Source: a virus. Taken from it: a DNA stretch of 23,305 bases. The translations under genes were made by a program, and so were the position numbers. The stretch covers positions 1-23,305 of the IMG/VR virus record IMGVR_UViG_3300046004_000121. One strand, 5' to 3'. Positions 1-23,305 of the stretch are shown here, in pieces; the first letter of the stretch is position 1; every line of letters starts with the position of its first letter. The notes under the pieces are model-generated. The model saw nothing but the letters and a program-made list of their open reading frames with translations, made no database searches and was not told the DNA's origin.

Positions 1-141
1 CTTAAATTTTTCAATTGTGCGTACATCACGAATGGTATCGTGAACCGTTGTTGTTAAAGTTTGAGTAACAACTTGCTTTGTTCTGCAAGAATTGAGAAAT
101 ATGATAAACAAAACGCCGAACAGATAAATTAAATTTTTCAT
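1..141 (-). CDS. Putative spanin-like lipoprotein (partial, runs off the left edge)
   Basis: The 47 codons in the window read MKNLIYLFGVLFIIFLNSCR and then a polar stretch rich in T, V, D and R. This is a short hydrophobic signal sequence followed by a lipobox (L-N-S-C), so residue 19 would be the lipidated cysteine after signal peptidase II cleavage. The start ATG (141-139) overlaps the TGA of the M15 endolysin gene (140-138) as ATGA, which suggests translational coupling. A small lipoprotein directly after an endolysin in a phage of a Gram-negative host fits an outer-membrane (Rz1-like) or unimolecular spanin, which disrupts the outer membrane in the last step of lysis. The lipoprotein signal is seen; the spanin role is inferred from position. 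The C-terminus is missing, so o-spanin and u-spanin cannot be told apart. Confidence 0.72.
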   Translation of the reverse strand, partial: MKNLIYLFGVLFIIFLNSCRTKQVVTQTLTTTVHDTIRDVRTIEKFK

Positions 142-584
142 TTATGTGGGATATATTTGGTTGCTCTTCCTTCTTTAACAGCATCTAATACACTTCTTCT
201 CTGCTTCCCGCTTGTATTGTATGAAACGTGTATCCAATCATAATCAAACTCGTTAATTAATTGGTCGAAGTCTAGGTTGTCTTTAATAAAGTCAAAAATC
301 TCCTTGTTATCTTTTTTGTTTCCTTGGTCTATATCAAGGGCTTCTCCCTTTGTGTGCTGAGAAGTTTTAGAGCCGCCAATAGCTGCGTTTAACGCTTTGC
401 TTCTATATCCACTTGATATATAAATAGGCTTATTAAGTTGAACTCTGATAGGCTCAAATATCTTTCTAGCAAGCTCAATTAGGTTCTCTGTATGCTCTGC
501 GTTTGGCATATTATTTATACCATTCCTTTTGGCATACTCAGACCTCGTCACTTCTATTAGACTCAAATGTTCTGTCAGCTTCAT
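138..584 (-). CDS. Endolysin, peptidase M15 family (D-Ala-D-Ala carboxypeptidase type)
   Basis: This 148-residue protein has the M15A fold signatures. Its N-terminus (MKLTEHLSLIEVTRSEYA) is typical of the family. A sugar-peptide-binding region with ISSGYRS follows, then the zinc-ligand motif SQHTKGEALDID (His and Asp ligands) and a C-terminal WIHVSY with the last His ligand. Such enzymes cut peptide bonds in the peptidoglycan stem or cross-bridge, and phages use them as endolysins. There is no signal peptide, so release would need a holin; two small membrane proteins lie directly upstream. An in-frame ATG at 623 would add 13 residues, but the protein from 584 begins as the family usually does, so I chose 584. 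It overlaps the end of the upstream gene by 47 bases. The family call is strong; the exact bond cut is not known. Confidence 0.88.
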   Translation of the reverse strand: MKLTEHLSLIEVTRSEYAKRNGINNMPNAEHTENLIELARKIFEPIRVQLNKPIYISSGYRSKALNAAIGGSKTSQHTKGEALDIDQGNKKDNKEIFDFIKDNLDFDQLINEFDYDWIHVSYNTSGKQRRSVLDAVKEGRATKYIPHK

Positions 585-789
585 ACTTGGAAAATTTAGA
601 TACAGTTGTTGCGGCAGCAGCATATCCCATTATAGCCATAACAAGATTCTGGACTCCCATACTTTCTGGATTAGCAATAAATTCGGATAATATAACGAAA
701 GAGCCTATTAGAAAAACAAGCCTACTGCTTGAATACTCTCCCTTGTGCGATATAAAGTCTTTAAGACTTCTTTCTTTTTGAGACTTCAT
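538..789 (-). CDS. Small two-helix membrane protein, holin candidate
   Basis: This is an 83-residue protein with a charged N-terminus (MKSQKERSLKDF), a hydrophobic segment at about residues 22-39 (RLVFLIGSFVILSEFI), a short loop, a second hydrophobic segment at about 47-65 (QNLVMAIMGYAAAATTV) and a charged C-terminus ending NRSDEV. Size, two predicted membrane segments, charged tails and position directly before the endolysin all fit a phage holin, which makes inner-membrane lesions that free the endolysin. Its start overlaps the upstream 63-residue gene by 29 bases and its end overlaps the endolysin by 47 bases. I do not recognise the sequence family, so the role comes from context. It could instead be an antiholin paired with the 63-residue protein. 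Confidence 0.65.
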   Translation of the reverse strand: MKSQKERSLKDFISHKGEYSSSRLVFLIGSFVILSEFIANPESMGVQNLVMAIMGYAAAATTVSKFSKYEADRTFESNRSDEV

Positions 790-1868: not shown

Positions 1869-1912
1869 TGTTTGGTTATGCAAATATATGAAATGTTTTT
1901 GTTTATCCACAA
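1869..1912 (-). promoter_or_regulatory. Promoter and AACCAAACA leader of the zinc-binding gene
   Basis: On the minus strand TTG (1912-1910) is followed after 21 bases by TATATTTG (1888-1881), then CAT and AACCAAACA (1877-1869), which ends 8 bases before the ATG. The -33/-7 pair fits the Bacteroidetes promoter pattern with a slightly long spacer. By the usual distance from a -7 box, the transcript would begin at or next to the AACCAAACA leader. The -33 part lies in the end of the cysteine-rich adhesin gene. Confidence 0.6.
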
Positions 1913-3180
1913 AATCCTGCTGTACCAGCATCATTAGTAGTAATACCTAAGTTCACAGAACAATCTGCTGTGTATAATAAATATCTTTCAGTTGCGCACG
2001 GATTATTGGCTTCATAAACACAATACGCTCTACCGCTAATACATCTAACTCCTATTGAAGTAGGGTAGCCTGTATCTGTATTACACGGGACGTTAGATGG
2101 CTTATTAAAGCCGTAGTCATATCCTTTTGCAAAGTAATGACCCGCAGTAGGGGAGCATACAGCAAAGTCCCTAAGTATAAACCAATTTTGGCAATCAATA
2201 CAAGTTTGCTCTAACGGCTCTAGGTATCTGATATCTGGCTGATTGTTTGTGCAACCGCAAGTTTCATAAATTGTATTTCCTGTAAAATTATACGGAGCGC
2301 AATTGAATCTTTCTCTCTTTAATTTGTCTTGCTGGAATGTGTTAACGCATTCGTAATAATCATAGTTAGTTCCTGCGCAACCTTGTCCACATTCGCAAGA
2401 ATTAGTAGCGGTTACATAGTCGTTTCTGTATAATCCAGTACAAGTATCAACCTCTCTAACTCCATAGCGAAAACACTCATAGCAAGCAGGAGACGGAACC
2501 CAGCAACAGCAAGAGCCATTAGCATTAGCGTAAGCCTGCCCACCTGCATTAACTTCTGCTACGGCTGCATTATATGCGGCTGCATTTGCTTGTGATTGAG
2601 CTTCAGTACAAGATACTGTTGATTGCGCTGAATAACCTGTTTTTGTTATAGAATAAGATACTGTTCCGTTTGGATAGCAGTTTGATGCGCAGTTGTTCTT
2701 AGTGAAGTTTGCACTATAAGTTCCTGTACCTCCAGAAAATGTAAACGTACAGAAGCCTCTGCTATTTACGGCAGCTTGCTTATTGGCATCAAACATAGCA
2801 ATAGCCGCTGTTTGAGCTTGTGTATCTGCGTCAGATTGCGATATAAAAGAAGTATATGTGGCATAGCCCGAGTATGCATTTTGAGGAGAGCCGTCATTAA
2901 GTGTTACTGTACTTCCTATCACTGTACAAGACCCGCCTACGCAGTTGTTCTTAGTAGAAGTAAATAATGGCGCGTATGTAAAACTAGCGCTCCAAGAACA
3001 AACTGCCTCCGCTGTTATTTCTCCACTCGAGTTTGTTGTAAACGTCTTTTGCCCTGTGCCAACTGGTATCTTATGGAATCCAGCACCCAAGTTTGTTTGT
3101 AGCGAATTGTCAGAATACAGCGTACACCCAACAGCTAGTGTTGTGCAGTTTGAATAAATATATTTTGATATACACGCCAT
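1903..3180 (-). CDS. Cysteine-rich adhesin-like protein with DUF5977-type repeats
   Basis: This 425-residue protein has two tandem repeats at about residues 67-145 and 146-222. Each has the order (F)TKNNC, a V/S-rich strand segment, a SQADA-like stretch rich in D, A and Q, and an end like NGQAYANANGSC. That order matches DUF5977, a short repeat found in secreted and surface proteins of Bacteroidetes. The C-terminal half is unusually rich in cysteine (for example CCCW, CECGQGC, CGC, CIDC). It has no signal peptide or S74 domain. It follows the T9SS-like protein by 12 bases, at the end of the fibre run, so I infer a virion tip or receptor-binding protein. If cytoplasmically assembled, such a cysteine content is odd and may mean metal binding or disulfides formed outside. 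The repeat assignment was by eye. Confidence 0.72.
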   Translation of the reverse strand: MACISKYIYSNCTTLAVGCTLYSDNSLQTNLGAGFHKIPVGTGQKTFTTNSSGEITAEAVCSWSASFTYAPLFTSTKNNCVGGSCTVIGSTVTLNDGSPQNAYSGYATYTSFISQSDADTQAQTAAIAMFDANKQAAVNSRGFCTFTFSGGTGTYSANFTKNNCASNCYPNGTVSYSITKTGYSAQSTVSCTEAQSQANAAAYNAAVAEVNAGGQAYANANGSCCCWVPSPACYECFRYGVREVDTCTGLYRNDYVTATNSCECGQGCAGTNYDYYECVNTFQQDKLKRERFNCAPYNFTGNTIYETCGCTNNQPDIRYLEPLEQTCIDCQNWFILRDFAVCSPTAGHYFAKGYDYGFNKPSNVPCNTDTGYPTSIGVRCISGRAYCVYEANNPCATERYLLYTADCSVNLGITTNDAGTAGFCG

Positions 3181-3192
3181 ATTAATAATATC

Positions 3193-4077
3193 CTATTGCG
3201 GGCAATAACCTTGTATTCTATTACCGAATTCGTCAAGCATTACCTCTCCTAAATTATTTAATCTAAACCAATATCCTTCAGAGCCTTGAAGTCTGTAATA
3301 ACCTTCTCTATTAATAATGTAGTCTCCAGAAGTTGCGTTTGGTGGTAATAACCCTCCTGCTGTAGTTATTGGCACCCTATAAGAGAATGATTCAAAAGTT
3401 GTAGAGGCACAAGCCGCTGCAAAAGTTGCTCCGAATGAAAAGTTGCCATTGGTATATTCCCCCGCAGAAGCATATAATATAGATAGTACATTATTATTTG
3501 TCAATGTGGTTCCTCCAATTACCCTGCCTGTTCCATCATTATAATCTATTTTGAAAAAATACAATTCGTAAGATGGCACCTTTACTCCATTATAAGCTCC
3601 AACATTTCCAATTCCGTTCCAAGGCACATAAACTCCCGTAAAGTCATATACAATATCAGCTTGTGTCGGAGAAATATATTTCATAACCACAAACCTAGCA
3701 TTAGGAAATTTGGCTGTATTTTGTATAATCCAAGTGTCATTTATTCCATCCCCATTAGGGCTCATCCCGTTTGCGGCAACCATTACTATATTGGAGTTTG
3801 CTTGATTGGTGTTAAATGGCACGTCACATATCCCTACATTAGTATCGCAACTAACAGACTTGTATTCATAAGATACGCAAGGCTGTGTATGATTATACCC
3901 CCACCATTCGTCTAATTCTGCTGGATTAGGAACTGCTGGCTTAAATGTGCTACACGGATTAATTTTAACATACAAGCCATCCTCAGCAGTATTTAAAGAA
4001 AAGTTTGATTCAACAGGCAAGTTTAACTCTTGCCGAATCATATTTATCGATATTGTCCCGCTATTAGGAAGTGGCAT
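3193..4077 (-). CDS. Virion protein with a T9SS type B (CHU_C-like) domain
   Basis: The 294-residue product starts MPLPNSGTISINMIRQELNL, a short N-terminal motif seen in many Bacteroidetes phage tail proteins. At about residues 100-200 it has the order NGMSPNGDGINDTWII, a strand FPNARFVVM, a WNG turn, VPSYELYFFKIDYNDGTG and an ending strand. This is the signature order of the gliding-motility-associated C-terminal (T9SS type B sorting) domain that sends SprB/RemA-type adhesins through the type IX system of Bacteroidetes. Here it lies in the middle, followed by about 90 more residues ending GYCPQ, so it may be a structural borrowing and not a working sorting signal. The gene lies 1 base after the 755-residue fibre stop and 12 bases before the next adhesin, so it is clearly in the phage fibre operon. 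Confidence 0.7.
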   Translation of the reverse strand: MPLPNSGTISINMIRQELNLPVESNFSLNTAEDGLYVKINPCSTFKPAVPNPAELDEWWGYNHTQPCVSYEYKSVSCDTNVGICDVPFNTNQANSNIVMVAANGMSPNGDGINDTWIIQNTAKFPNARFVVMKYISPTQADIVYDFTGVYVPWNGIGNVGAYNGVKVPSYELYFFKIDYNDGTGRVIGGTTLTNNNVLSILYASAGEYTNGNFSFGATFAAACASTTFESFSYRVPITTAGGLLPPNATSGDYIINREGYYRLQGSEGYWFRLNNLGEVMLDEFGNRIQGYCPQ

Positions 4078-4078
4078 C

Positions 4079-6346
4079 TTACTTCAGTTTATTTTCTAAC
4101 TCCTTAATTCTTGCCTCTTGTTCATTCATCCCTGCAACAAGTAATCCAATTATCTTTTCGTAGCGAACTGCAAGGTAGCCAGACTCTCTTTGTTGTACAG
4201 CTAAAGGAGCAACGCTCTGTACATCTTGAGCAATTAATCCCATATCGTCTCCTGTTAAGCCATACATCTCTTCGGCATTTTCTGTCCAACTAAATGTAAC
4301 TCCACGAAGTTTAGATATCTTGTCAATGGCATTATCAATAACAGTTATGTTATCCTTTAATCTTTCATCAGATGTACTATAACCAATAATATCCCCCGTA
4401 GCAGTAATTGTTCCAGATGCATAAATATTACCGCTTGTATTTGGCGGCGCAGTAGCAAATGTCCCAACTTTAAGTGAACCAACCTGAATATTATCTGTTG
4501 TTGCACCAATTGCTATGTTAGGTGTATTAGTCGGGTTTGTTACTACTGACGATATTCCGTTTCCAGAAGTCGTTGTTATAGTAGATACTGTAGTGAAAAC
4601 CATATTCGCCGATAAAGGGCGAGAGGTACCATTAATTGTAAGCGTTGTCGTAGAGTTTGCTGGGACAAAGTTTAATCCACCAGAACCAACAATCTCATTG
4701 TATCCGTAAGTAATTGCTCCAGTTAACCCGTTAAACGATGTTAGTCCAGCAGCAATTGTCCAGCTTCTATCGGCAGATAAGTCATAGCTTGTTCCGTTAA
4801 TTGTCAACGTTCTAGTTGTTGGGACAGGCGTATATCCTAATGCAGACGTAACCGTTCCTGAGCTAATCGAGCTTATGTATCCATTTGGATTTGACGCTCC
4901 ATTGTAGGGGGTATATCCTAGCGCTGTTGATATATCTGAGCTAAGTAATGTTATGACACCAGTGCGCCCAAAAACGCTCGTTACAGGGAAAGTAAATGAG
5001 CTAGTTAAAGTTCCTCCGTCTTGCTTTGTTAAGGTTAGCGTTTGAGTAGCTGTTCCCGAAAAAGCAGAAGATACAATAGAGCGATTATAAGAAGTGTTCC
5101 AATTAGAAATATTTGTATTTGTAATTGCAAACGAAGGAGATGCTGTAAAAATTGGGTCTGATTCACCAGCAGAAATAGTTTGATATGTGATAGCCGTTAC
5201 GCCAACAGTAATCGTAGTCTGATTCGTGTTACCGTATCTCGCGTTAATAAAAGTTCCTGCCGTGATTAGGTATTGGTATCCACGCAATTCTGCGTCGGTA
5301 TCTGAATCTGCTGCACGAGTCCATCCGCCAGAAGCTGCTTCGTAAACACCGTTTGCCGATTGAGTAGACTGCCCAATAACTAATATTCTATCTCCCACTA
5401 CAGGAGTGTATCCGTTAATAGCAGCAAGTCCACTTAACCCAATGTTAGTAGTTGCAACTGTCTTAACCTCTGCTCCTAGCTTTAAGCCCGTTAGAGCAGT
5501 ATTATCTACGTATTGCTTTGAAGCAGCGTGAGACGCGTCAACAGGAACTAATGGAATATTTACGTTAGAGGAAAACGTCCAAGTATTATTAGCTGCAACA
5601 CCTAATGTATTGCCAATAATTGGTGTGATTAAAGATGTTTGTATTCTAGCTGTTCCGTTTACATCAAATGTATATGCAGGAGCATTTGTTAAAACACCAA
5701 GTCTATTGTTTGTGTCGTTCCAGAATAAATGATTAACATCTGATACTAACGTATCGCCATCGCTAAAAGGTATCGCTCCTTCGGGGAATGGCGTTACAAC
5801 ACTAACCTTGCCATCAGGCTCAACCTGCAATAACTGATTGTAAGTTAATGCTGGGTCTTCAACCGTTCCTGATAAGAATAATGTATCAACGGACACCTTC
5901 TTTAAAGTAGAGTCTCCCATATAAATAATATCGGAGCCTTTCTTAGAGTAGGCTAGGTTGTAACCATTAATCTTGTATCCATTTTTTGAGGAGGCGTTAG
6001 ATACGTTTATGCTTGCCTCGTAAATATCAAATGCAAACTTAGGAGCTTTTGTGCCGAGTCCAATTTTCTTTACACTTTCGTATAATACAGAATTGTCAAA
6101 ATTATCTTTATTGGAGTTAACCTTTACAAGATAATTCTCGTCAGCATCTATTGCTAAAGCAACCGTCTCTGTTGTAGCATTTGTAATGATATTCGTTGTC
6201 GTAGGACGAACTGCTGGAGCAGCTGTTATAGCAGCAGCTTGTGTAACAGTAGCTTGCGTAGTAGTAAAAGCATCAGCGGGTATTGTAACAACGTTTCCGC
6301 TATTATCAATACCCATTAAGCCCACTACATTAGATGGTAATGCCAT
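4079..6346 (-). CDS. Tail fibre with C-terminal S74 intramolecular chaperone
   Basis: This 755-residue protein begins MALPSNVVGLMGIDNSGNVV. The middle is rich in T, S, G and N with fibre repeats such as VTSVFGRTGVITL followed by ALGYTPYN, and ALGYTP followed by RTLTINGTSYDLSADRSW. The last ~100 residues start at TSDERLKDNI and contain MGLIAQDVQSVAP and a terminal coiled coil (LLVAGMNEQEARIKELENKL). That is the S74 domain, which helps the trimer fold and then cuts itself off using a Ser-Lys pair; the Ser of SDERLK and the Lys 5 residues on are both present. A likely role is receptor contact on the tail or baseplate. It is separated from the upstream 126-residue gene by 41 bases and from the next gene by 1 base. 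Confidence 0.9.
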   Translation of the reverse strand: MALPSNVVGLMGIDNSGNVVTIPADAFTTTQATVTQAAAITAAPAVRPTTTNIITNATTETVALAIDADENYLVKVNSNKDNFDNSVLYESVKKIGLGTKAPKFAFDIYEASINVSNASSKNGYKINGYNLAYSKKGSDIIYMGDSTLKKVSVDTLFLSGTVEDPALTYNQLLQVEPDGKVSVVTPFPEGAIPFSDGDTLVSDVNHLFWNDTNNRLGVLTNAPAYTFDVNGTARIQTSLITPIIGNTLGVAANNTWTFSSNVNIPLVPVDASHAASKQYVDNTALTGLKLGAEVKTVATTNIGLSGLAAINGYTPVVGDRILVIGQSTQSANGVYEAASGGWTRAADSDTDAELRGYQYLITAGTFINARYGNTNQTTITVGVTAITYQTISAGESDPIFTASPSFAITNTNISNWNTSYNRSIVSSAFSGTATQTLTLTKQDGGTLTSSFTFPVTSVFGRTGVITLLSSDISTALGYTPYNGASNPNGYISSISSGTVTSALGYTPVPTTRTLTINGTSYDLSADRSWTIAAGLTSFNGLTGAITYGYNEIVGSGGLNFVPANSTTTLTINGTSRPLSANMVFTTVSTITTTSGNGISSVVTNPTNTPNIAIGATTDNIQVGSLKVGTFATAPPNTSGNIYASGTITATGDIIGYSTSDERLKDNITVIDNAIDKISKLRGVTFSWTENAEEMYGLTGDDMGLIAQDVQSVAPLAVQQRESGYLAVRYEKIIGLLVAGMNEQEARIKELENKLK

Positions 6347-6387: not shown

Positions 6388-6768
6388 CTATAATTGCACT
6401 TCTGGTTCAGCAGGTTCTTCTGGAGCTACTGGTGCTTCAGGAGCTGGAGCCCAAGGAAGTTGTAGCCTTACAATCGGGGGAGTACGCTGATTATCAATTT
6501 GTGCTACCAAATTATCATCTACGCCAACAGTATGTGGAGACGCTGATACCCACTCAATGCACATTTCCTCAGTAACTTCCTCGTAAGGAGTGAATGATGC
6601 AGGATGAGGTGCAGCAACAGATACTGTTCCGTACCAACGTGCGTTAAAATTGTCGTCTGAAACAGCAAGTTTCTCGCAATGAATAACGCTGATAACGTTT
6701 GTTAATCCGTCTAATGACGGGATGGTGTCTAGTGCGACAATGTTCCAATGTGATGTGATTGATGACAT
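6388..6768 (-). CDS. Small DUF7936-like phage protein with a proline-rich tail
   Basis: The 126-residue protein has SHWNIVALDTIPSLDGLTNV at the start, a VHC strand, ARWYGTVSV, FTPYEEVTEEMCIEWV and NQRTPPIVRLQLPW. This order (xxWNI, a Tyr/Val strand, FTPY-x-LTE, an amphipathic helix ending in a W, then Q-x-NPPIV-x-x-LPW) matches the small DUF7936 phage family, known best from marine T4-like phages, often near tail genes. The last ~20 residues are a low-complexity tail of A, P, E and V. It lies between two S74 fibres, 1 base after the stop of the 383-residue fibre. Function is not known; a fibre-associated or assembly role is inferred from position. Confidence 0.7.
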   Translation of the reverse strand: MSSITSHWNIVALDTIPSLDGLTNVISVIHCEKLAVSDDNFNARWYGTVSVAAPHPASFTPYEEVTEEMCIEWVSASPHTVGVDDNLVAQIDNQRTPPIVRLQLPWAPAPEAPVAPEEPAEPEVQL

Positions 6769-6769
6769 A

Positions 6770-7921
6770 TTATTTTTGTTTTAAAATTTCTATTTCTGCT
6801 TTTAATTCTTGGATGGCTTTGACTAAGACAGGAATAAATGCAGCCTGCTTTAGTCCGATAAATTTATCATCGCCTTCCTTGTCTTCGTAATAAGCCTGCG
6901 GAATAATATCCTTAACCTCTTGAGCAATAAAACCAATTTGCTCTTCTTGGTTCTCGTCATCTTTAAATTTGAAAGTAGACGGTTTTAATTGCATTACTTC
7001 AGCTAAACCTAATGTAGATAAGGCAATATCTTTTTTCTTATTTATATCAGATATACCAGTATAACCTCCACCTGTATCAATTTGAAATTTAGCAGAACCT
7101 TGCCCAACACCCGTACCTCCATAAAAGAATCTAAAATTATTACTCCAAGATGTACTTACTTGCATATACCATCCATTGCCCGATACTTGGTTATTTGAAT
7201 TTAAGCCATAGGCATATCCGTAATTAATAACAATACCATTGTCAGAGTAAAAGCCTCCAGAAGATGCTATGCTACTAGAAGAATAAATGCTACCAGACAC
7301 ATTTAATTTATTTCCGTTGTCGGTAGTTGTTCCTATTAATAAATTACCGTTACTAGCTAATTGCATTCTTATGACATTTGCTATCCAGAAGTCATATCTT
7401 TTTGTTTGCCCTGTATAGAAAAACCAGCCATTAGCTCCTGCTCCCACACTAAATGAACTACCTGTATTATCATATTGTATAAATGAGTCAGTAGAATCAC
7501 CTGTATTATTTAACCTCATACTAACTGAGGTAGAATTAGTTACTTCTAATTTGTAAGTTGGCGAAGTCGTTCCAATACCTACGTTGCCAGCGGAGGTTAT
7601 TGTTAGTGCATTTACACTGTCTGTATTATTTCTAATAACAAATTTTCCTGCCCCATAAACACCATCTCCAGTATTAGTTGAATATAAGTCCCAATTTTTA
7701 CCTCCTGTATGCGTATTGCTTAATCTTAAAATTGCCCTATACCCATCTGCAAAAGTTGAATTTATTGACAACAATCCATCTGACGCTCCACTATTAGTGA
7801 ACCTCCCAGCTCCTGTCACATCCAAGGCTACGGTTGGATTTGTATTTTTTACCCCAACATTACCTGATGAATTAACAAATAACCCATTAACTAAATTTCC
7901 TAAATCTGTATTCTTTGACAT
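6770..7921 (-). CDS. Tail fibre with C-terminal S74 intramolecular chaperone
   Basis: This 383-residue fibre starts MSKNTDLGNLVNGLFVNSSG and NVGVKNTNPTVALDV, an N-terminal block shared in form with the 439-residue fibre upstream. A glycine/serine/asparagine-rich shaft contains SAGNVGIGTTSPTYKLEV. The C-terminal domain begins at SDINKKKDI and has IGFIAQEVKDIIPQ and a terminal coiled coil ending EIEILKQK. It is an S74 domain; the Ser and the Lys at +5 are kept, but the usual Arg at +3 (SDxR) is replaced by Asn. Self-cleavage should still be possible if the dyad is what matters. It begins 4 bases after the stop of the GIY-YIG gene. Confidence 0.88.
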   Translation of the reverse strand: MSKNTDLGNLVNGLFVNSSGNVGVKNTNPTVALDVTGAGRFTNSGASDGLLSINSTFADGYRAILRLSNTHTGGKNWDLYSTNTGDGVYGAGKFVIRNNTDSVNALTITSAGNVGIGTTSPTYKLEVTNSTSVSMRLNNTGDSTDSFIQYDNTGSSFSVGAGANGWFFYTGQTKRYDFWIANVIRMQLASNGNLLIGTTTDNGNKLNVSGSIYSSSSIASSGGFYSDNGIVINYGYAYGLNSNNQVSGNGWYMQVSTSWSNNFRFFYGGTGVGQGSAKFQIDTGGGYTGISDINKKKDIALSTLGLAEVMQLKPSTFKFKDDENQEEQIGFIAQEVKDIIPQAYYEDKEGDDKFIGLKQAAFIPVLVKAIQELKAEIEILKQK

Positions 7922-7925
7922 ATTA

Positions 7926-8534
7926 CTAAGCGTTTATTAATGCTTTGAGTTCGTTAATTTTTCTAGGCTTTTTGCCCATTTTTTCTGGATATTTATATTT
8001 CCAAATAAAACCGTATGCTTGTTTAAATTTCTCTTGACAACAACGCATAATACCAGTAGAGCATCTATTTAAATATTTTGCAGCATCTATCATGCCATCC
8101 CATTCTTTAATAAAAGTGCCATCTAATTCATATTGAATGACAGGAAGTTTATTGTTTTTAGACATTTTTTCTCTTGCCTCTTCTGACATTTTTTTACCTA
8201 AAGAAGCTTTAGATAAATTTTCTCTATGCTGCAATGTAGGAGTATATCTCCTGCCAATAGTACCTTCTCCTCCATCAGTCATATTTGATAGGCATCCTGT
8301 TTTTTCATCAATTCTGCCATACATCAATATAAACTCTTTTTCTTTTTCACAGGCTTCTTCCCAAGTTAATTCATCTAATACCACCTCTGCCTTGTATTTA
8401 GTTTTATTGACAATTTTATTCCATATAGCATTTCTTTTTCTTTTATCATTAATCCTATATTTATTTTTATCGCCAATTCCTATATAGAATGGTTCATTTT
8501 TGTCTAGTCTTATATGTCGATAAACGTATGCCAT
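7926..8534 (-). CDS. Homing endonuclease, GIY-YIG with NUMOD3 and NUMOD1-like modules
   Basis: The 202-residue product has the GIY-YIG N-terminus (AYVYRHIRLDKNEPFYIGIG), an Arg-rich helix and a Glu in the EKEFILMYGR segment that would bind the metal, then LSNMTDGGEGT. The C-terminal half has a NUMOD3-like helical DNA-binding piece (LSKASLGKKMSEEAREKM) and a NUMOD1-like piece with a strand and Trp (VIQYELDGTFIKEWDGMIDA followed by a helix and GFIWKY). Such free-standing enzymes cut a site in a related phage lacking the insert and so spread themselves. The start overlaps the stop of the 439-residue fibre by one base (TAATG), and its stop lies 4 bases before the next fibre. It uses no promoter of its own and so depends on the fibre transcript. 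Confidence 0.87.
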   Translation of the reverse strand: MAYVYRHIRLDKNEPFYIGIGDKNKYRINDKRKRNAIWNKIVNKTKYKAEVVLDELTWEEACEKEKEFILMYGRIDEKTGCLSNMTDGGEGTIGRRYTPTLQHRENLSKASLGKKMSEEAREKMSKNNKLPVIQYELDGTFIKEWDGMIDAAKYLNRCSTGIMRCCQEKFKQAYGFIWKYKYPEKMGKKPRKINELKALINA

Positions 8535-9853
8535 TATTTTGACTCTAAAGTTACAATTCTTGTTTCTAAATCTTTAATAATTTGAGTCTGTTCTTGGATG
8601 GCTTTGACTAGTAGAGCCGAAATTGAGCCATAATCTACGCCTAGATATTCTCCGCTTGTATCATCTACCACTTGAGGTAGTATTTCCAATATTTCTTGAG
8701 CGACAAAGCCAATCTTTACTTTTTCTTTTTCGTCATTTATAAATTTATAAGAAACAGGACGCAATAAAGAAACCGCATCTAATCCATTAAATGATATTGT
8801 ATTTATATCTTTTTTTAATCTTGCATCAGAACCATTTATCCAAGTTGTTCCATTGCAATATGCCCCAGTTGACCCGCCAACAAATGCCTGAAGCGAACCA
8901 TAATCATTATAGAATCCAGAACTATTATTTGGAGAAACTGCTGGCTCTAATACTAAGTCAGCTCCACTTCTCAATAATAATCCAGCTCCTCCTGTTGGAT
9001 GCCAAACTTGCAAAGTTCCGAGTCCATTGTCAGATGTGCCACCCATAAGAACTTTTCCGCCACTAGAAATCCGCATACGTTCCTCGCTGGTACTAAAAAA
9101 TGCTACACCATAATATCCTGACAAACCTAAAGGTTGCGAACTCCATCCGTAACCAATTCCATATTGCGGAATAGATGTTCCTAAAGCACTAAATTGGTCT
9201 GATGTATTAAATCCAATTCTAGTTCCACTTGATGAAACTACACTAATGTTTCCACTAACGTGAAGCCTTTCGTTTGGAGAACTCGTTCCAATACCTACGT
9301 TGCCTGCGGAGGTAATTCGCATACGTTCGGTGTCATTAGTAAAAATGGCAGCAAAATGATTAGATGTTGTTCCAACATATAAACCACCATTTGGATTATG
9401 AGCCCTTACTGAAGCATTAACACTTGTACTTCTAAGATTTAATGTACCATATTGCCCACCATTAATCTGCAATCTAGTGTCTCCTGAATCTGGATTAGGT
9501 AATCCATTAATACCTATACTACCATCAGCAGTAATCCGCATACGTTCTACTGCATTTACAATAAATGACATTGGATAAGCGCCTGACGAATAAATGAATC
9601 TACCATAAGCGGTTCCTGTGAAGTTTGCTCCTGCCGAATCATCAATCCCAACATACATTGTGCCTCCAGTATTAGTATATTGAGACACCACAAAATTAGT
9701 TGTCCCAGCAATATTAATACGAGCATTTGATGCCCCAGTAGAATACGCATCAATAAGATATGATGGGCTAGTATTATTTACCCCCACCCTGCCATTGGTA
9801 GTGTCAGCGAAGAGTACATTGGTTAAACTATATTGATTCGATATTTTTGTCAT
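8534..9853 (-). CDS. Tail fibre with C-terminal S74 intramolecular chaperone
   Basis: The 439-residue fibre begins MTKISNQYSLTNVLFADTTN, then GRVGVNNTSPSYLIDA. The shaft has MRITSAGNVGIGTSSP-type repeats (four ERMRI segments) that also occur in the giant fibre and the 383-residue fibre. The S74 domain begins at SDARLKKDI (Ser and Lys +5 present), has IGFVAQEILEILPQVVDD, and ends with a coiled coil (IIKDLETRIVTLESK). It starts 20 bases after the giant fibre stop. Like the other S74 fibres it should trimerise, fold with its chaperone and then lose it by self-cleavage. Confidence 0.9.
   Translation of the reverse strand: MTKISNQYSLTNVLFADTTNGRVGVNNTSPSYLIDAYSTGASNARINIAGTTNFVVSQYTNTGGTMYVGIDDSAGANFTGTAYGRFIYSSGAYPMSFIVNAVERMRITADGSIGINGLPNPDSGDTRLQINGGQYGTLNLRSTSVNASVRAHNPNGGLYVGTTSNHFAAIFTNDTERMRITSAGNVGIGTSSPNERLHVSGNISVVSSSGTRIGFNTSDQFSALGTSIPQYGIGYGWSSQPLGLSGYYGVAFFSTSEERMRISSGGKVLMGGTSDNGLGTLQVWHPTGGAGLLLRSGADLVLEPAVSPNNSSGFYNDYGSLQAFVGGSTGAYCNGTTWINGSDARLKKDINTISFNGLDAVSLLRPVSYKFINDEKEKVKIGFVAQEILEILPQVVDDTSGEYLGVDYGSISALLVKAIQEQTQIIKDLETRIVTLESK
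9281..9331 (-). repeat. Short DNA cassette shared between fibre genes (copies near 7566, 10411)
   Basis: The segment here, the one at 10411-10460 in the giant fibre and the one at 7566-7601 in the 383-residue fibre are nearly identical (GTTCCAATACCTACGTT and GCGGAGGTAAT appear on the plus strand). They encode the ERMRITSAGNVGIGTSSP block or part of it. Identity at the DNA level across different genes suggests recent exchange or duplication. Confidence 0.7.
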
Positions 9854-9873: not shown

Positions 9874-12800
9874 TTAAAAAGCACGAATCGCGCGAACATA
9901 AAATCCAGTACTTTTATCGTGGTTAGCGGATGCGCCATTTATGAAGTTTATATTTGCCGCCCTTGCGTTAAATGGACTTAATTCTAAAGAACTCCAATAA
10001 TTTCCATTTGCAAATCCGCCAACTACTGTTTTTTGTAAATACAATAAATTCAATTCATATAAACTTGGTAAGTACCAATCAGAATAATTGCCACCATTAT
10101 ATGTTGCACATAATTGCGCTGCATAAGTTCCTGATTGATAAACTGCCGTAGCATTTGTTGTATTTCTTATGCCCCCATTAATACCATTTGCTAAGGCATT
10201 CACTGCTCCATATCCTGTATTATACCAAGATGCTGATGATGACTGGTCTGATGGCGCCGCAATTAATCCGTGCTTACCTCCATCGTACACAAAAAATACT
10301 ATCCCTCCTCCGTAACTTTCTCCTATAAAATGTACTATATTAGTTCCTCCAGTATTTACATTTACGCTAAATGTTCCTGTACCAGCAACATCTAAGGTAG
10401 TTGCAGGTGAACTTGTTCCAATACCTACGTTTCCAGCGGAGGTAATACGCATACGTTCAGTATTTGCAGTTTGGAAAAACATAAGATTTGATGTATTCCC
10501 AAAATATATACCTTCTCCAGCTTGCCCTGTTGCTGTACTAATCATTACGCCAGCACTATCAGGATAAAAATATAACTTCTGAGCAGAAGTTCCAATTGAA
10601 ACAAGCTCTCCTGCTGCTCCTAATACATCTAATTTATATGCAGGAGTTGCAGTCCCAATACCTACGTTAGTCCCATTATCAAATATCTGACTATTCCCAA
10701 TCGTACCACTTGCAGTAAACTTAGGCACATAGTTTGCCGTACCACTTCCTGACACACCTGTTACCGAAGCATTGTATCTAATAGCTTGTACTTGGTCGCC
10801 AACCACCGAAGCGACTGTTAGGACAAACGTTGTTCCGTTAGTTGCTGTAAACTCAGCTGCTGTTAACTTAGAACCGTTGACATATACGTCTAACAAACCA
10901 ACTGTGTAACCACCTGTTACCGTAAAGGTAGTCTGTGCCGCAGTTGCTGTGTAATCAATTACATCTCTTGACGTAGGTAATGCCGCAATTGTACTTGTAT
11001 AATTTAATACCGTTACAGCATCATTTAATAAAGCACCTGTGCCAAGTACCACCGTCGTACCATTCGTTGCCGTATAGTCCGTTGGAAGAAGTCTAGCACC
11101 GTTAATAAACACGTCAACCAAGCCTACTACATAACCACCTGTTATGGTGAAAGTAGTTTGTCCAGCAGTAGCTGTAAAGTTTTGTTCTGCTCTAGCGGAG
11201 GCAGAAGGAGTAATTGTATAAGTTCTATCCGCTGACAAGTCTAACGTTGTACCATTAATCGTAATCGTACGCGTTGTCGGAACACCACCCAATCCAGCAA
11301 GAGTATATGTTGGAATGTTAAGTGTGTTAGAAGACAATGTCGCAGAACCGCTTGAACCTGTAGTGGTTAAAGTCGTAATTCTGTTTGTATAAGCAGTATC
11401 CCAGTTTGTAGCAGAACTTGTTGTCGGAATAACATATCCAGAAGTCAAGCTGAACACACCCGTTGTGTTGGTGTACGTTAAGCCAGTTGCCGTAGAAGAT
11501 AATGCTGTTAACGCAATATAGTTATTGGGGTTAGTTGCGTTATATGGCGTGTAACCTAATACCGTTGTTAACTGAGCGTTCTTCCAAAGGCTAGTCGCGC
11601 TATCGTAGTAAACTAAGTCTTTGTTAGCCTTAGAAGTAAGAAGCACATTATGAAGTTCTTCAAACTCAAAGCCATTCTGTACGTTAACAAATATCTCTCC
11701 GTTGTTAGATTGAACTCTTGTTACAACACCGATAAACACCAAGTGTGCAGGAGCGACAGGCTTGTTAGCTAAGCCAAATATCAAGTTGCCACCTGTACCT
11801 AACCATACTGGGTCTCCAGCAGTTGCAGTAGAAGTATCAAGTCCAGCGACAAGTCCCTCTGTAACAACCTTTACGATGTCGTTTGTAACTCCGCCAGTTT
11901 CTGTTAAACCAAGTACTTTTGAAGACGTAGCCTCTGAAGCATTAGATGCCGCAGAAACAATCATATTTGTACCGTCAGCACTTGATACATAAACTGCCCT
12001 GCCCTTAGCAATAGTAGCACCTAATTTAACATCGTGCTTAACTTGAGTTGCATAATTATCAATCCATTGTGTATTGTAATCAGTAGCATCAATCTTAGAT
12101 AATATCTGCCCAGCAGTTCCTCCAGCAGCTAATGTGCCAGAAACTGTCCAGCTTCTATTTGCTGTTAAGTCGTATGTTGTGCCGTTAATAGTTAACGTGC
12201 GAGCATTTGTTACAGGAGTATATCCTAGCGCAGTCGTAACATCTCCCGAAGTTAATGTAATTGCACCTGTTCTTGTATTGAAGCTAGTAACTCCAGCGGC
12301 AACCGTTCCCCAACTTAAAGCAGAACCGTCTGTTGTTAAGTATTTACCTGTATTACCAGTCTGCGAAGGGAAAGCTGCTACAAAAGTGTAAGCGTCATCC
12401 CAGTTGCTCTGCTTAACAGTAGTAGGAATAGCGTATCCAGTTGTTAAACTAAATACACCTGTTGTGTTAGTATATGTTAACCCAGTAGCCGTAGAAGACA
12501 AAGCCGTTAAGGCAATATAATTGCTAGGGTTAGTTGCGTTATACGGAGTGAATCCTAAAGCAGTTGTTACGTCTCCAGATGATAATGTAACAGCTCCTGT
12601 TCTAGTGTTAAAGCTAGTAACTCCACCTTGATATTCAGGAATATTTAAAACACCCGTAGTCGAATTGTAAGTCGCCGCACCACTTGTTCCTGTAGTGGTT
12701 AATGATATAGCAGCTCTTGCTAACGCATCTGTGTACTGAGTTAGCGAAGTGCTTATAACTCCAGTTGTAGAGTTGTAAGATATATTGCCAGTAGCACTAA

Positions 12801-15456: not shown

Positions 15457-15480
15457 TTTAAAGCGAGAATAGTTTTGCCT

Positions 15481-15488
15481 CAAAGATA
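15481..15488 (-). promoter_or_regulatory. Candidate -7 box of the fibre operon
   Basis: On the minus strand TATCTTTG is a full match to the Bacteroidetes -7 consensus TAnnTTTG. It lies 24 bases upstream of the giant fibre ATG and directly downstream of an intrinsic terminator. There is no clear TTG at -33; the T-rich tail of the terminator occupies that place. The leader would be about 20 bases long and lacks AACCAAACA, unlike the head and accessory genes. Confidence 0.5.
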
Positions 15489-16398: not shown

Positions 16399-17175
16399 TT
16401 ATTGTTTGGTTTTATAATTAACTCCGTCAAAAGTAGCACCTTTTTTTAAATTATCCAATGCCCACATAGGTTGTAAATTAGTATAATGATTTGAAGCCAT
16501 TATTTCTTCTTGTGTACTTGCCATAGCTAACGGCTTTATATGGTCTATATGCCATCCATTTATTCCATAATTATCCCACGTCATCCCTTCTGTGAATTGT
16601 TTTTCAATATGGAGTTTTAGCTCTTCAAAAGTGCATCCAACTATTTCTTGAGTTTTTTTGTCTTTACTTCCTAGGATATATCGTAATACCATATTTCTAG
16701 TATTTCTTATTAAGCGATATAAAGGGTCATTCGCTCTACGTTTTTTATCGTATTTCGATTGCCTTGCATTTATTTTGGGTCTATTATTTTTTGTGTATTC
16801 AGACTTTTCTTTTGAAAGTTTTTCTGCATTTTCTTGTCTATACTTCTTTTGCTGATTAAATACTTGTTGTGCATTTTCTATTGCCCATTGTTTTTTATAC
16901 TCCGCTATCTTTGCTTTATTTTCTTCTCTGTATCGTTTATCGTATTCTGCTTTAGATTCTTTGGTTTTTTCTGCGTACGATTTTGCCCGTGCAAGATTTT
17001 CTTCTCTTTTTTTATAATAAGAAGCAAGATTCATTTTTCTTCTTTTTTCTAGATTTTTAAGTCTATCTTCTTTTTGTTTAATATTCGTGCATTTTTTACA
17101 AGACCCCATATTCGGTTTATGGTATTGGTCAATTGTTAATTCTAAATTACAAGTTTTACAGATTTTTTCCCTCAT
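16399..17175 (-). CDS. HNH homing endonuclease, free-standing
   Basis: This 258-residue protein starts MREKICKTCNLELT and has a zinc-binding four-cysteine site (CKTC and CKKC, residues ~6-30). A long highly charged K/E/R/N-rich helical stretch follows (residues ~35-150). The C-terminal catalytic part has GWHIDHIKPLA (the His-Asp-His of the HNH fold) and NHYTNLQPMWALDNLKKGA, the usual phage HNH ending with the Asn and metal-side His. It is an insert-type mobile enzyme, coded in the same direction as the head genes. The gene lies between two copies of the AACCAAACAA leader (17192-17183 and 16411-16402); its last codons (YKTKQ, stop) contain the second copy. It is visibly more AT- and Lys-rich than the capsid gene. 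Confidence 0.9.
   Translation of the reverse strand: MREKICKTCNLELTIDQYHKPNMGSCKKCTNIKQKEDRLKNLEKRRKMNLASYYKKREENLARAKSYAEKTKESKAEYDKRYREENKAKIAEYKKQWAIENAQQVFNQQKKYRQENAEKLSKEKSEYTKNNRPKINARQSKYDKKRRANDPLYRLIRNTRNMVLRYILGSKDKKTQEIVGCTFEELKLHIEKQFTEGMTWDNYGINGWHIDHIKPLAMASTQEEIMASNHYTNLQPMWALDNLKKGATFDGVNYKTKQ
16401..16412 (-). repeat. Second AACCAAACAA leader copy, used by the 271-residue gene
   Basis: Minus-strand AAACCAAACAAT here is read in frame as the last codons of the HNH gene (K-T-K-Q-stop) and, at the same time, is the leader 9 bases upstream of the 271-residue ATG. With flanking As it matches the scaffold leader over 16 bases (AAAACCAAACAATAAA). There is no TAnnTTTG box directly upstream. 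It forms a direct repeat with 17183-17192, about 780 bases away. Confidence 0.7.
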
Positions 17176-17288: not shown

Positions 17289-18620
17289 TTAAATAGAATA
17301 TTTAACGAAGTGCTCGTTCCCTACCGTTTCTAACCCCTCGATACTTGTGTACACGATATCAAGAGTATCTGTGTCACTTGTAGGAGTTGGAGCAAGTCCC
17401 CCGAGCATTTTCTCACGGAAGCGAGAATTTAAGCCTTCTGGCATCTCTAGGTAACGAACCATCATACGGTCTACTTGACCACCACCTTGCTCAACCTTAA
17501 TCTTTCCAGCAGGAACTAAGTACGCCTCTTTTGTGAAAGTAGTTGTACCACCTACTGAAGTTACTTGTGGGTGAGATAAAGCGTTAAGACGCTTCTTGTG
17601 GAAAGTACGTCCAAATGCAGCTAAAGATTGAACACCTAAAGCGATAGCAACGTCTTTCTTACCACCGTAAGAAGCATAGTTTACTGCACCATTGATGAAT
17701 TGAGTAGCACCAGTGATTTGAGAATCAAAAGCGTTATCAAAGTCAGCACCAGCCCATAATTGGTATTCTGAAGGGCAACGGTTAGCATCCATCAAACGAG
17801 ATAATGCAGCGATATCAGACAATAACAAAGTGCCACCAGTTGCAACTGAAGATGAAATACCACCAGCATTAACGATAGTGTCACGCAAACCGCGAGTTGT
17901 ATTGATAGCGTTACCAGAAGCATCAGTTAATCCAGCTGACTCACGTCCAAATAATACTGAATAAAGGATGTCCATACGGTGCTTCAAATACGCATCGTGC
18001 TGCTGCTTCAAGAAGTAGTAAGGCTTACCTTTGAATTCAACTTCGATTTTAGAACCGTAAGCGATATCAGTAATAGAAGTCTTAGTCTTGAAGATTTGCA
18101 ATTTGTTAGAACGCTTAATCAAATCAGACTTACGCATTTGGTTAGAACCAGTTCCTTCCGCGTATGCGTTAGACATAAATGACAACTTAGAACCTGTTGT
18201 AGCAGCAGGGATAGCATCAGCTGAGTTAACTGGCTTAACAGTGATAACGAAGTCAGTAGCTGAAGAAACAGCAGATACATAACCTACAACACCGTTAGCA
18301 AACAAGATTAACTCACCAACTACTGGCTTAACAGAAGTAGCGCCAACACAAGTGATATCTACAGATGCACCAGCAGAACCAGCAGAAGTGCCAGGAGTCT
18401 TAACTGTAGCAGTAGCATACAAGAAGTTGTTTTGTACTGTAAAATACTCAGTTTGAGCAGTAGCCTTAGCCTTACCTGTCCAATCTAAGATGTCCAACAT
18501 AGACGCTTCCTCATCATAGATGTCAAGAACGTCCTTTAAAATTTCACGTTGCTCTAACGTGTTTGTAAACGATACCGTCGATAAAAACGTACGGTCGATA
18601 TTACCTGCTGCAATAGCCAT
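17289..18620 (-). CDS. Major capsid protein
   Basis: The 443-residue protein begins MAIAAGNIDRTFLSTVSFTN, followed by a helix (LEQREILKDVLDIYDEEA), strand-rich middle (VVGELILFANGVVGYV) and a long helix-like segment with GKPYYFLKQQHDAYLKHRMD. The C-terminal half has RCPSEYQLWAGADFDNAF, KIKVEQGGGQVDRMMVRYLEM and a final strand. The size, fold order and position after portal and scaffold fit an HK97-type capsid subunit; the start resembles the SU10-type (DUF5309) group, but I am not certain. Codon use is cleaner (repeated use of a few codons) than in neighbours, as expected for the most expressed gene. No cleavage signature for a prohead protease is obvious. It follows the scaffold gene by 27 bases without an AACCAAACA leader. 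Confidence 0.82.
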   Translation of the reverse strand: MAIAAGNIDRTFLSTVSFTNTLEQREILKDVLDIYDEEASMLDILDWTGKAKATAQTEYFTVQNNFLYATATVKTPGTSAGSAGASVDITCVGATSVKPVVGELILFANGVVGYVSAVSSATDFVITVKPVNSADAIPAATTGSKLSFMSNAYAEGTGSNQMRKSDLIKRSNKLQIFKTKTSITDIAYGSKIEVEFKGKPYYFLKQQHDAYLKHRMDILYSVLFGRESAGLTDASGNAINTTRGLRDTIVNAGGISSSVATGGTLLLSDIAALSRLMDANRCPSEYQLWAGADFDNAFDSQITGATQFINGAVNYASYGGKKDVAIALGVQSLAAFGRTFHKKRLNALSHPQVTSVGGTTTFTKEAYLVPAGKIKVEQGGGQVDRMMVRYLEMPEGLNSRFREKMLGGLAPTPTSDTDTLDIVYTSIEGLETVGNEHFVKYSI

Positions 18621-19759: not shown

Positions 19760-22057
19760 TTACTTCTCGGTATTTCCTAAATCTTTTTCACCCTTTTTTA
19801 TTTGGGCGATGTATTCTCTACTATTTGCCTCAATCTTACTCATATTAATTTTGCCCTCAACCTTCATCGCTTCAATCTGAGCTAGTTGCTGCATCTTAGC
19901 CAATTCAACCTGCAATTCCAATTCTTTTTCCTTCTGAATTACAGCCATTTTAGCTTGCATTTCAACTTGTAAAGTTTGTTGCTTAGCAGCCTCCGCAGCC
20001 TGAGCAGATTGCATTTGAATCTGTCCGTTCATCTGCTGTTGCTCCATAGCACGTTTCTGTTGGTCATCTAAGTTTTTCTTAATCTTGTCGCCCAACAATA
20101 CTTCAGCGTATTTAAGGTTCTCAAGATTGTCAATCATCATTGCGTCAGCCAATGTAATCTGATTAGATTGAATTGCTTGCTCAATTCGGCGAGCTAATTT
20201 TTCTTTCTCAAATTCTGTTGGCTTTTGTCTAACCATCAATCCACATTCGTGAGCAGATACGTTCGGGTCTAACTTAAAGAACTGAACTGTCTCGCTGCCT
20301 AGTGCACGAACATATCCTGAGATAGAGCCATTTAATGCAGAATCTTGGATACGCAATGTTAAGTCATAGCATAAACGCTCAAGCAAATCTCTTTCAGCGC
20401 GCTTAACAAAGTCTAGCGAATTATTAGTAGATTCAGACGCGTACTTTGCAACACCATTTAATGTACGTGGGTCTGGAGTAGAACCATCGGTAATCTCATT
20501 AAACCCTAGTATATCCCTAAGTAATTCAATATTTTGTTTAATAATATTAAAATACTGAACAGCTTCATTTCCAATACCATTTTCAAGCTCTTCAATTGGC
20601 TTGTAATTACTTGCTTGCCCTTCATCATTAAGTCTTCTATAAACAAGAGTACCAGTTTGATTGTATAAGTCTAATATTTCTGACGGCTTTAATGCACGAC
20701 CTGCTTTTCCTAAAGGCACTCCTTCTAACGAGCCAATCTCAATCATTATACCACGTGGCTTAGCACGTAACATAACATTCTGTAATTTGTAGTAGGCTAA
20801 CTGTATCTGGTCGGCGACACTCTTCATCTGGTCTCCCATCGAATAAGTTGACATCTGATACATATTAGGTGCCGAGATATGGTAGCTTAACGAAGTCTCT
20901 GTTAGAGAAGACTTGGCGCGCTTCATATTTGTAGCTAAGCCGCAATCAAAAAAGAACTCAGAACCTACTACCCACTTGCCTTTATAAACAACTTTGTAAT
21001 CTGTCTTTGAGTATGTTTTATCTTTTCTTGAGTTTTTAATTTTACTTGCACGACCAACAACTTTGTTTCCTTTTGAGTTAACTCGCTCCTCAAGAATCAT
21101 ACTATTGTATGAGTAGAATTCTAGGTCTAATACCTTTATTCTAAAGCCGTCATAAATACCATTGTAATTGCTATTTAAGTCGCGCAACGTAGAAGTATTG
21201 TTGTATTTGTTTGAATACTTCTCTGCAATGATTTGATACTGCTCCTCAGTTAACTTATCCCCAGCCATTTGCTTTAAGTCGGAGATTGTCATCTCAATAA
21301 CTTCTCCAATGTACTGAACGTCTTTAAAGTTCGGGTCAGTCGTATATGACATAATCATATTCATTGGATTGACACGGCGAATCTTAATGTTATTTTGTGA
21401 GTCAAAGTATTCCTTGTAACCACCTATTCCCCAATCGTATAAATCTTCAATTACCTTTGCGCGCTCATTTTCAAACTTATTTAGATTCATTATAAGCTGT
21501 AAAGCTTGCTCCATTTCGATTGCCATTCTGTGCTTGTATGAATAATTCATATACATATCAAGTTCCTTCATATCCTCTACAGGAGCCTCTGGCGATGGAA
21601 TTAATTCTGGGTCAAGTCCCTGCTTCTCGTATTCTTTTTTAAGAATAAGTTTTGCAGCGTTGTCAGCGTAAAAAGATTTCTTGTCGTCCTGAGCTATTGG
21701 GTCAATAGCGTCTATTGAAATATTGTAGTCGGTCTTAAATAAAGTAGCAAGTGCTATACGGCGGAACTTAGGGATAATTGGTAAGATGTCCCAGTTGATA
21801 TTAATCCAAGACTGGTCTTCGTTGGCAACGTCACGCGGCTGTAACAATTTCTTGTATCTGCTAACAGATTGTTTTCCATACATATACAACTTAATCTCGT
21901 GATACTTATCTCGACCATTGTACATTTGGTTAGGATAGTAAGCAGAGAAATCCATCCAAGCTGCTTTTAAGTATTGTGCTATCCATTTTTCATCCTTCGC
22001 TGCCGCATCAATAGTGTGCGAAGGAAAATTGTTAGTCGTGTTTGCGTTTTCTGCCAT
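19760..22057 (-). CDS. Portal protein
   Basis: This 765-residue protein carries the portal layout: an N-terminal wing part (WININWDILPIIPKFRRIAL, LATLFKTDYNISIDAIDP), a long middle with DWGIGGYKEYFD and MNMIMSYTTDP, a crown-type helical part (ADQIQLAYYKLQNVMLRAKP, RDILGFNEITDG) and a C-terminal helix of about 110 residues rich in Q, M, A, K and E (coiled coil). It forms the ring at one capsid corner where DNA is packed and the tail attaches. Large portals of this kind are typical of crAss-like and related Bacteroidetes phages. The ATG lies 4 bases after the terminase stop codon; the two genes are clearly one unit. Confidence 0.85.
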   Translation of the reverse strand: MAENANTTNNFPSHTIDAAAKDEKWIAQYLKAAWMDFSAYYPNQMYNGRDKYHEIKLYMYGKQSVSRYKKLLQPRDVANEDQSWININWDILPIIPKFRRIALATLFKTDYNISIDAIDPIAQDDKKSFYADNAAKLILKKEYEKQGLDPELIPSPEAPVEDMKELDMYMNYSYKHRMAIEMEQALQLIMNLNKFENERAKVIEDLYDWGIGGYKEYFDSQNNIKIRRVNPMNMIMSYTTDPNFKDVQYIGEVIEMTISDLKQMAGDKLTEEQYQIIAEKYSNKYNNTSTLRDLNSNYNGIYDGFRIKVLDLEFYSYNSMILEERVNSKGNKVVGRASKIKNSRKDKTYSKTDYKVVYKGKWVVGSEFFFDCGLATNMKRAKSSLTETSLSYHISAPNMYQMSTYSMGDQMKSVADQIQLAYYKLQNVMLRAKPRGIMIEIGSLEGVPLGKAGRALKPSEILDLYNQTGTLVYRRLNDEGQASNYKPIEELENGIGNEAVQYFNIIKQNIELLRDILGFNEITDGSTPDPRTLNGVAKYASESTNNSLDFVKRAERDLLERLCYDLTLRIQDSALNGSISGYVRALGSETVQFFKLDPNVSAHECGLMVRQKPTEFEKEKLARRIEQAIQSNQITLADAMMIDNLENLKYAEVLLGDKIKKNLDDQQKRAMEQQQMNGQIQMQSAQAAEAAKQQTLQVEMQAKMAVIQKEKELELQVELAKMQQLAQIEAMKVEGKINMSKIEANSREYIAQIKKGEKDLGNTEK

Positions 22058-22061
22058 AATC

Positions 22062-23305
22062 TTACAGGAATATCTCCTTTACGTCGTATAACTTTTTTGT
22101 TACTTCTTGTTTTTGAGCAAATCGAGAACCATTGGCTAACATTAATGTGTAGCCACTCGCCATTGTCGCATCAAATTTAGTGGTTTTATTTATATCAAAC
22201 TTCAACCAATCCAATAAAAGATTTTTGAATCTTACTTTTGCTACATTTTCCTCTACGTAAGTCTCGATTAATTCAGCTATTTGTTGGTGCGTTTTTACTG
22301 TGGCAGATACACCAAACTTAGCTCCGTTCTTAAACAAGAACCGCTCGTAACCTCTGTGCTCAAAGTATTTAATTAAGCCAACCTTGTTATCCTCTGGAAG
22401 TATTGTACATCCAAAGAAGTGGCACAACTTAATCATATCCTCGTAAAATATTTCCGCTTTATCTGGGCGGTTAAGGTATTCGACAACAAACGTCTCACTT
22501 AGTTCGTGGATAGCATCAAATGTTTTATAAACGTATGCTGCACCATCAGAGCGTTCTTTTGATGTTGTAATGTTGTGGTCAAACGGGTCACATCCAATAA
22601 CAAACTTAGTGGCTTCTATTGGAGCTTTTCTTGTTCCAAACTCTCTTACCTGATTGTAGTAGTTTGAGTCTGTTGGATTTACGCTGGCGTGTACTAAGAA
22701 CTTTCCGTTAGAAGTTTTCTTGAAGACAACTTTACTGTCTCGCACACTACCTTCCCACATAAATTCGCCGCGAATATACAATTCTTTTTCGTCCATCCAA
22801 GAGATTGACTCTACTTGGCGGTTTAACTTCATCGCATCAAATAGACAAGATTCAGCTTCAGAAAAGAATGCCTCCTCAATTGTAAATGGGTTCTTACGGA
22901 TATATGAAGCTAAAGCACGTGGGTCGCTTTCGAGTCCATTACGAGCATTCATAAAATATTCCTTACCCTTCACCTCATCAGGGAATCCATACCTATCGTA
23001 GAATAAAGTTTTGTAGGCAGGCATAAAGTATTGATACAATCCTGATTGCGTTCTTCCGTTGGCATCTCTTTCGTTTATGTCAGACGCATTCCATAACTTT
23101 TGAAAGGCTTGACCTCCATCCTCCATCTCCTCGACAGTTGTTGTGTAGAGAGCCTTGCCGATAATGCGTTCTTCTTCAAACAAACAGAACTGAACGACTT
23201 GATGTCTATCGTAAACGTCAACGCCCTTTGTCTTTCCTGCCTCGTCTCCTAGGTACCTGTGAAGCTTCATACCGTCATACGCAAACTTGTCGGCAGATTT
23301 AAATC
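22062..23305 (-). CDS. Large terminase subunit (partial, 5' end beyond the right edge)
   Basis: The frame is open to the window edge; the first in-frame Met at 23270 is internal. The visible part, about 413 codons, starts in the ATPase domain with RYLGDEAGKT (Walker B-type acidic pair DE) and TTTVEEME (coupling motif). The nuclease domain has the RNase H-like acids: VIGCDPFDH, LPEDNKVGLIKYF and KFDATMASGYTLML. So this is the packaging motor's ATPase end and all of its headful-cutting nuclease. The Walker A motif must lie beyond the edge. Resemblance to crAss-like terminases is by eye. The portal follows 4 bases after the stop. Confidence 0.88.
   Translation of the reverse strand, partial: FKSADKFAYDGMKLHRYLGDEAGKTKGVDVYDRHQVVQFCLFEEERIIGKALYTTTVEEMEDGGQAFQKLWNASDINERDANGRTQSGLYQYFMPAYKTLFYDRYGFPDEVKGKEYFMNARNGLESDPRALASYIRKNPFTIEEAFFSEAESCLFDAMKLNRQVESISWMDEKELYIRGEFMWEGSVRDSKVVFKKTSNGKFLVHASVNPTDSNYYNQVREFGTRKAPIEATKFVIGCDPFDHNITTSKERSDGAAYVYKTFDAIHELSETFVVEYLNRPDKAEIFYEDMIKLCHFFGCTILPEDNKVGLIKYFEHRGYERFLFKNGAKFGVSATVKTHQQIAELIETYVEENVAKVRFKNLLLDWLKFDINKTTKFDATMASGYTLMLANGSRFAQKQEVTKKLYDVKEIFL

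Follow-up and report, generated by a model that had tools for sequence, protein, structure and literature searches.

P0001, a putative 294-aa fibre-partner protein, is encoded in the structural region of the 23,305-base window (the whole stretch of DNA that was analysed, an IMG/VR contig), where S74 fibre, portal, major capsid and terminase genes were identified using Pfam and PHROG. The plus strand of 3193-4077 is stop-rich, and the open reading frame lies on the minus strand. The following features were located:

1903..3180, minus strand: 425-aa DUF5977 protein, the next gene downstream of P0001 and not PorP/SprF (Pfam PF19404, E 2.7e-11)
3193..4077, minus strand: P0001, 294-aa putative fibre-partner protein (open frame, with homologues on contigs L001, L211, L183, L200 and L230 in the same gene order)
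3196..3459, minus strand: P0001 C-terminal module, aa 207-294 (confident in the full-length model; conserved in six homologues)
3508..3783, minus strand: P0001 CHU_C-like (T9SS type B CTD-derived) domain, aa 99-190 (Pfam PF13585, masked-loop profile-profile comparison, domain model and Foldseek viral matches)
3733..3762, minus strand: P0001 hallmark loop PNGDGINDTW, aa 106-115 (only in the window and L001)
3880..4077, minus strand: P0001 N-terminal module, aa 1-66 (LPNSGTISINMIRQEL...NTAEDG...DEWWGYNHT), common to phage proteins with varied C-termini
4079..6346, minus strand: 755-aa tail fibre with a C-terminal Peptidase_S74 chaperone, directly upstream of P0001 (Pfam PF13884, E 5.9e-15; PHROG tail fibre families)
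6388..6768, minus strand: DUF7936 protein between fibre genes (Pfam PF25590, E 2.5e-18)
6770..7921, minus strand: 383-aa S74 fibre (Pfam PF13884, E 4.9e-13)
8534..9853, minus strand: 439-aa S74-type fibre (our own S74 profile, whose seeds included the C-terminus of this fibre itself)
17289..18620, minus strand: major capsid-type structural protein (PHROG 13704; tblastn to phi18:3, E 3e-5, 23%)
19760..22057, minus strand: portal protein (PHROG 6547, E 5.5e-88)
22062..23270, minus strand: terminase large subunit, a fragment at the window end (PHROG 6681, E 6e-57)

The capsid-type protein has distant similarity to the Cellulophaga phages phi18:3, phi13:2, phi19:3 and phi46:3, and phi18:3 (assigned to Pachyviridae) is also matched by the terminase and portal of the window. 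A Bacteroidota host is likely for this phage. Profiles of the N-terminal, middle and C-terminal modules of P0001 gave nothing above the inclusion threshold when compared with a fetched stretch of phi18:3.

Judged by sequence alone, GIY-YIG-like (7926-8534) and HNH-like (16399-17175) endonuclease genes lie among the structural genes, and a lysis-type gene appears to differ at the same site in close relatives, being M15-like in the window (138-623), another peptidase in L001 (9480-9947) and lysozyme-like in L230 (3641-4165). A 1869-aa protein (9874-15483) gave a sub-threshold C-terminal match to Lcl_C (31.2 versus 34.9 bits).

One close relative of P0001, L001 (about 86-87% identity), was recovered from IMG/VR. 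Further homologues were obtained using an N-module pattern scan and an alignment-based scan, namely L211 (52% identity), L183 (36%), L200 (35%) and the partial L230 (28%), and the family comprises six members only. The gene order of S74 fibre, P0001-type gene and DUF5977-type gene is common to the window, L001, L211, L183 and L200, and its downstream part is present in L230. Within this syntenic family the PNGDGIND loop occurs in the window and L001 and is gone in the other four of six members; L211 carries YPIPDGFPNTW at the loop position, and L183, L200 and L230 are without a loop. Identity to L001 is 87% for P0001 versus 98% for the upstream S74 fibre, and to L211 it is 52% versus 78%. The C-terminal module is 33% identical between the window and L211 and is conserved across all six homologues. 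The fibres at 6770-7921 and 8534-9853 share only 35% and 42% identity with their L001 counterparts, the 755-aa fibre 98%.

Searches of reference collections yielded little. No match to the whole of P0001 or to its CHU_C part alone was found in INPHARED phages using tblastn, and the other two parts gave weak matches only (E 0.4 or worse). Nothing convincing was returned from PHROGs, no match was found among PDB sequences, and the P0001 family profile gave only weak matches to PDB sequences (best E 0.098).

The first ~66 residues of P0001 belong to a module common to phage proteins of many sizes with varied C-termini, which was found on 68 distinct contigs (e.g. L172-L216). The module-bearing gene lies downstream of an S74 gene on the same strand in 60 of these 68, with a gap of ≤ 100 bases in 39, and six of the eight contigs lacking an upstream S74 gene have ≤ 608 bases of upstream sequence. 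P0001 itself combines the module at its N-terminus with an S74 fibre gene directly upstream. A related N-terminus was also seen in Vibrio phage PhiImVa-1, where the preceding gene bears the annotation long tail fiber distal subunit. The N-terminal module would appear to be a general marker of fibre-partner genes, with an S74 predecessor almost invariable where upstream sequence exists.

The original prediction had placed an internal T9SS type B-like domain in this fibre gene cluster on the basis of four ordered motifs. All four are present in that order in P0001 (NGMSPNGDGINDTW, FPNARFVVM, WNG and ELYFFKIDYNDGTG, spanning about aa 102-184), and the domain was recovered with the Pfam CHU_C profile (PF13585) at aa 102-182 of 294 (E 5.5e-7, 30.1 bits versus a gathering threshold of 27, profile positions 4-75 of 86). 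The proposed profile check was borne out for CHU_C and not for NCBIfam TIGR04131, which scored 28.1 bits, under its cut-off of 35. Among the homologues, PF13585 scored above its cut-off in L001 (30.7 bits) and sub-threshold in L211 (15.1 bits), with no match in L183, L200 or L230.

A host CHU_C profile, drawn from three host genomes, was compared with the six phage domains using hhalign. The score was 71 with the loop included and 44.7-45.3 (about 95%) once the PNGDGIND loop was masked; the four members without the loop scored 35. As a control, the columns of the unmasked alignment were shuffled (n = 30), which gave a maximum of 15.8. The match to a phage-cargo CHU_C profile was weaker and more loop-dependent, falling from 41.9 to 17.7 on masking. 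The similarity is not due to chance, given the masked-loop score of 44.7-45.3 versus the shuffle maximum; the middle domain of P0001 is truly CHU_C-derived, and the similarity exceeds the PNGDG loop. In a FastTree phylogeny of 93 columns the six phage domains formed one clade (support 1.0), and host adhesin-type CTDs were the nearest neighbours of this clade in the midpoint-rooted tree. Host-to-phage capture is the simplest reading, and this is the direction that we infer.

Structures were predicted using AlphaFold. The full-length model of P0001 was poor (pLDDT 50), with the exception of the C-terminal module, whose blocks were mostly at 65-87 pLDDT, and a search of the PDB with the full-length fold found no match at E ≤ 1e-3. 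The model covering aa 68-206 was beta-rich (pLDDT 80.8, pTM 0.73) and CHU_C-like, in agreement with what had been predicted, but this fold is partly built in and is not independent evidence, because 33 of the 38 further rows in its alignment are CHU_C sequences. Foldseek comparison of the domain model with BFVD returned five matches at E ≤ 1e-3. Three of these carry the name gliding motility-associated C-terminal domain protein; the other two, A0A516LFN5 and A0A516LPX6, are nameless. No match was returned from the PDB library at E ≤ 1e-3. According to a 2025 paper, no type B CTD structure had been solved (PMC12618676).

The P0001 domain resembles the CHU_C/type B sorting domain of SprB (PF13585, TIGR04131) in its collinear similarity, its PNGDGIND and W(D/N)G loops and its beta-rich predicted fold. 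It differs in being internal, in lacking a signal peptide, NRWG, the terminal strand and a nearby shuttle gene, and in belonging to a phage fibre locus. The Pfam match stops at aa 182 and about 110 aa follow, whereas 29 of 30 host CHU_C cases in the three host genomes end ≤ 20 aa from a stop. By inspection, no hydrophobic stretch of a signal peptide was seen in the N-terminus of P0001 (MPLPNSGTISINMIRQELN). The loop motifs PNGDG and WNG are retained in the window and L001; neither NRWG (motif B) nor the terminal strand is present in the window, L001 or L211 (motif letters were assigned from the text of PMC12618676). In the SprB CTD of F. johnsoniae, each of five conserved motifs is reported there as needed for secretion or SprF recognition, and NRWG and the terminal strand correspond to motifs described in that text as individually required for secretion. 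No PorP/SprF gene (PF11751) was detected in the window or among 15 phage records searched; two host genomes searched hold 7 and 9 PorP_SprF proteins. By the features that can be assessed from sequence, the P0001 domain does not appear to be a working T9SS tag. With key tag features missing, the fold has most likely been reused as a fibre part rather than as a secretion tag.

Other phage-borne members of the domain family were surveyed using pattern scans of IMG/VR. These yielded 99 other phage PNGDG proteins with a C-terminal domain, a partial census because set patterns were required and one in which some loci are near-identical contigs; a real internal CHU_C domain was found in the window and L001 only. 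Many NGDGxND matches proved not to be CHU_C, these being repeat and other unrelated proteins, and an internal PNGDG in L053 looks like a chance translation in another frame. P0001 shares a domain family with the phage C-terminal CHU_C proteins (IMG/VR contigs; in BFVD, e.g. A0A7S9STS8). Unlike P0001, those found carry the domain at the C-terminus and mostly have a signal peptide (69 of 77 complete proteins passed a crude test), and an S74 gene was present within 4 kb at 0 of 141 CHU_C-profile loci, a count that includes host loci and some duplicates.

Some of these phage proteins consist of a bare signal peptide and CHU_C, at about 107-109 aa in L008, L030 (where the frame is longer), L036, L059, L061, L066 and L149, and at 93 aa, lipoprotein-like, in L038. 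Such proteins might titrate host shuttles, an idea prompted by the lack of PorP/SprF in the phage records tested and by the description of shuttles as limiting in PMC12618676.

Several accounts of P0001 were weighed. That it is T9SS cargo exported by the infected host, like other phage CHU_C proteins, is extremely improbable: a CHU_C score above the Pfam cut-off and the existence of phage cargo with a C-terminal CHU_C speak for it, but the layout, unlike that of the 99 C-terminal cases counted, already contradicts it; the signal peptide is absent, the domain is internal, TIGR04131 is under its cut-off and motifs are missing. A PNGDG loop that arose by chance or convergence on an otherwise unrelated phage beta domain would fit an HMM score lying mostly in the loop and the drop of the phage-cargo hhalign score from 41.9 to 17.7 on masking; the masked host-profile score of 45, the score of 35 for loopless members and shuffles at ≤ 15.8 make this very doubtful. 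Genes directly downstream of fibre genes often encode chaperones, and a non-virion assembly chaperone that folds or trims the S74 fibre, its CHU_C-like fold being incidental, would predict the same gene order and the strong coupling to S74 genes. We consider this unlikely, since the S74 fibre has its own intramolecular chaperone and the regions after the N-terminal module vary widely in size and sequence, a better fit to adhesins.

The original prediction also proposed that a mimic of a host surface-protein tail docks on the T9SS or gliding machinery. The phage would have captured the type B tag of a host adhesin, and the CHU_C-like domain would bind a receptor, docking the fibre partner on PorP/SprF-like outer-membrane barrels or gliding machinery of the host. 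Type B CTD proteins are described as binding PorP/SprF-like proteins for surface anchorage (PMC9143113 and PMC12618676), the PNGDG loop and WNG are retained in the window and L001, host adhesin-type CTDs are nearest to the phage domain, and 7 and 9 PorP_SprF proteins occur in the two host genomes searched. Docking could survive the loss of tag features, as binding of a phage protein to a host barrel does not require its secretion. Two findings speak against it: motif B and the terminal strand are missing from the window, L001 and L211, when PMC12618676 reports each of five motifs as needed for SprB CTD secretion or SprF recognition, and four of the six homologues no longer carry the PNGDG loop. 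The proposal is not supported as it was worded, and docking of this kind, weakened by these findings, seems distinctly improbable.

The other half of the original prediction, reuse of the fold as a structural module, gives the best-fitting reading. We hold it to be probable that P0001 is a fibre-partner protein with an N-terminal docking module and a host-derived CHU_C domain repurposed as a beta-rich module, probably serving as a tip adhesin. The first ~66 residues would pair with the tail fibre made from the adjacent upstream S74 gene. The middle would descend from the subtype of host type B CTDs (CHU_C) found in host adhesins and, having lost the secretion-tag function, would form a beta-rich part of a protein associated with the fibre. 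The end would be a fast-diverging C-terminal module. An adhesin on the fibre fits because the N-terminal module is coupled to S74 genes and P0001 is diverging faster than its S74 neighbour; a virion location, a tip position and receptor binding are what we infer. In phages T2 and T6 the gene for the adhesin gp38 follows the fibre gene gp37, and P0001, as an adhesin probably at or near the fibre tip, may be comparable as a small variable protein encoded right after a fibre gene. In the window an S74 fibre replaces gp37, and the likeness is one of arrangement, with no sequence link claimed.

T9SS-related domains are known from other Bacteroidota phages: crAss-like contigs are reported to encode T9SS sorting-domain proteins (PMC6949934), and Cryophage to encode cargo with a type A CTD (PMC7468147). 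Those proteins are described as T9SS sorting-domain proteins or cargo; P0001 is a fibre-partner candidate with an internal domain. The P0001 domain is real and unusual. If the favoured reading is true, the fold of a host secretion signal became a phage fibre module, with homologues having shed the hallmark loop. A CHU_C annotation of a phage protein need not then imply T9SS cargo, and in the annotation of Bacteroidota phages a gene with the N-terminal module directly after an S74 fibre gene would be a candidate host-range determinant.
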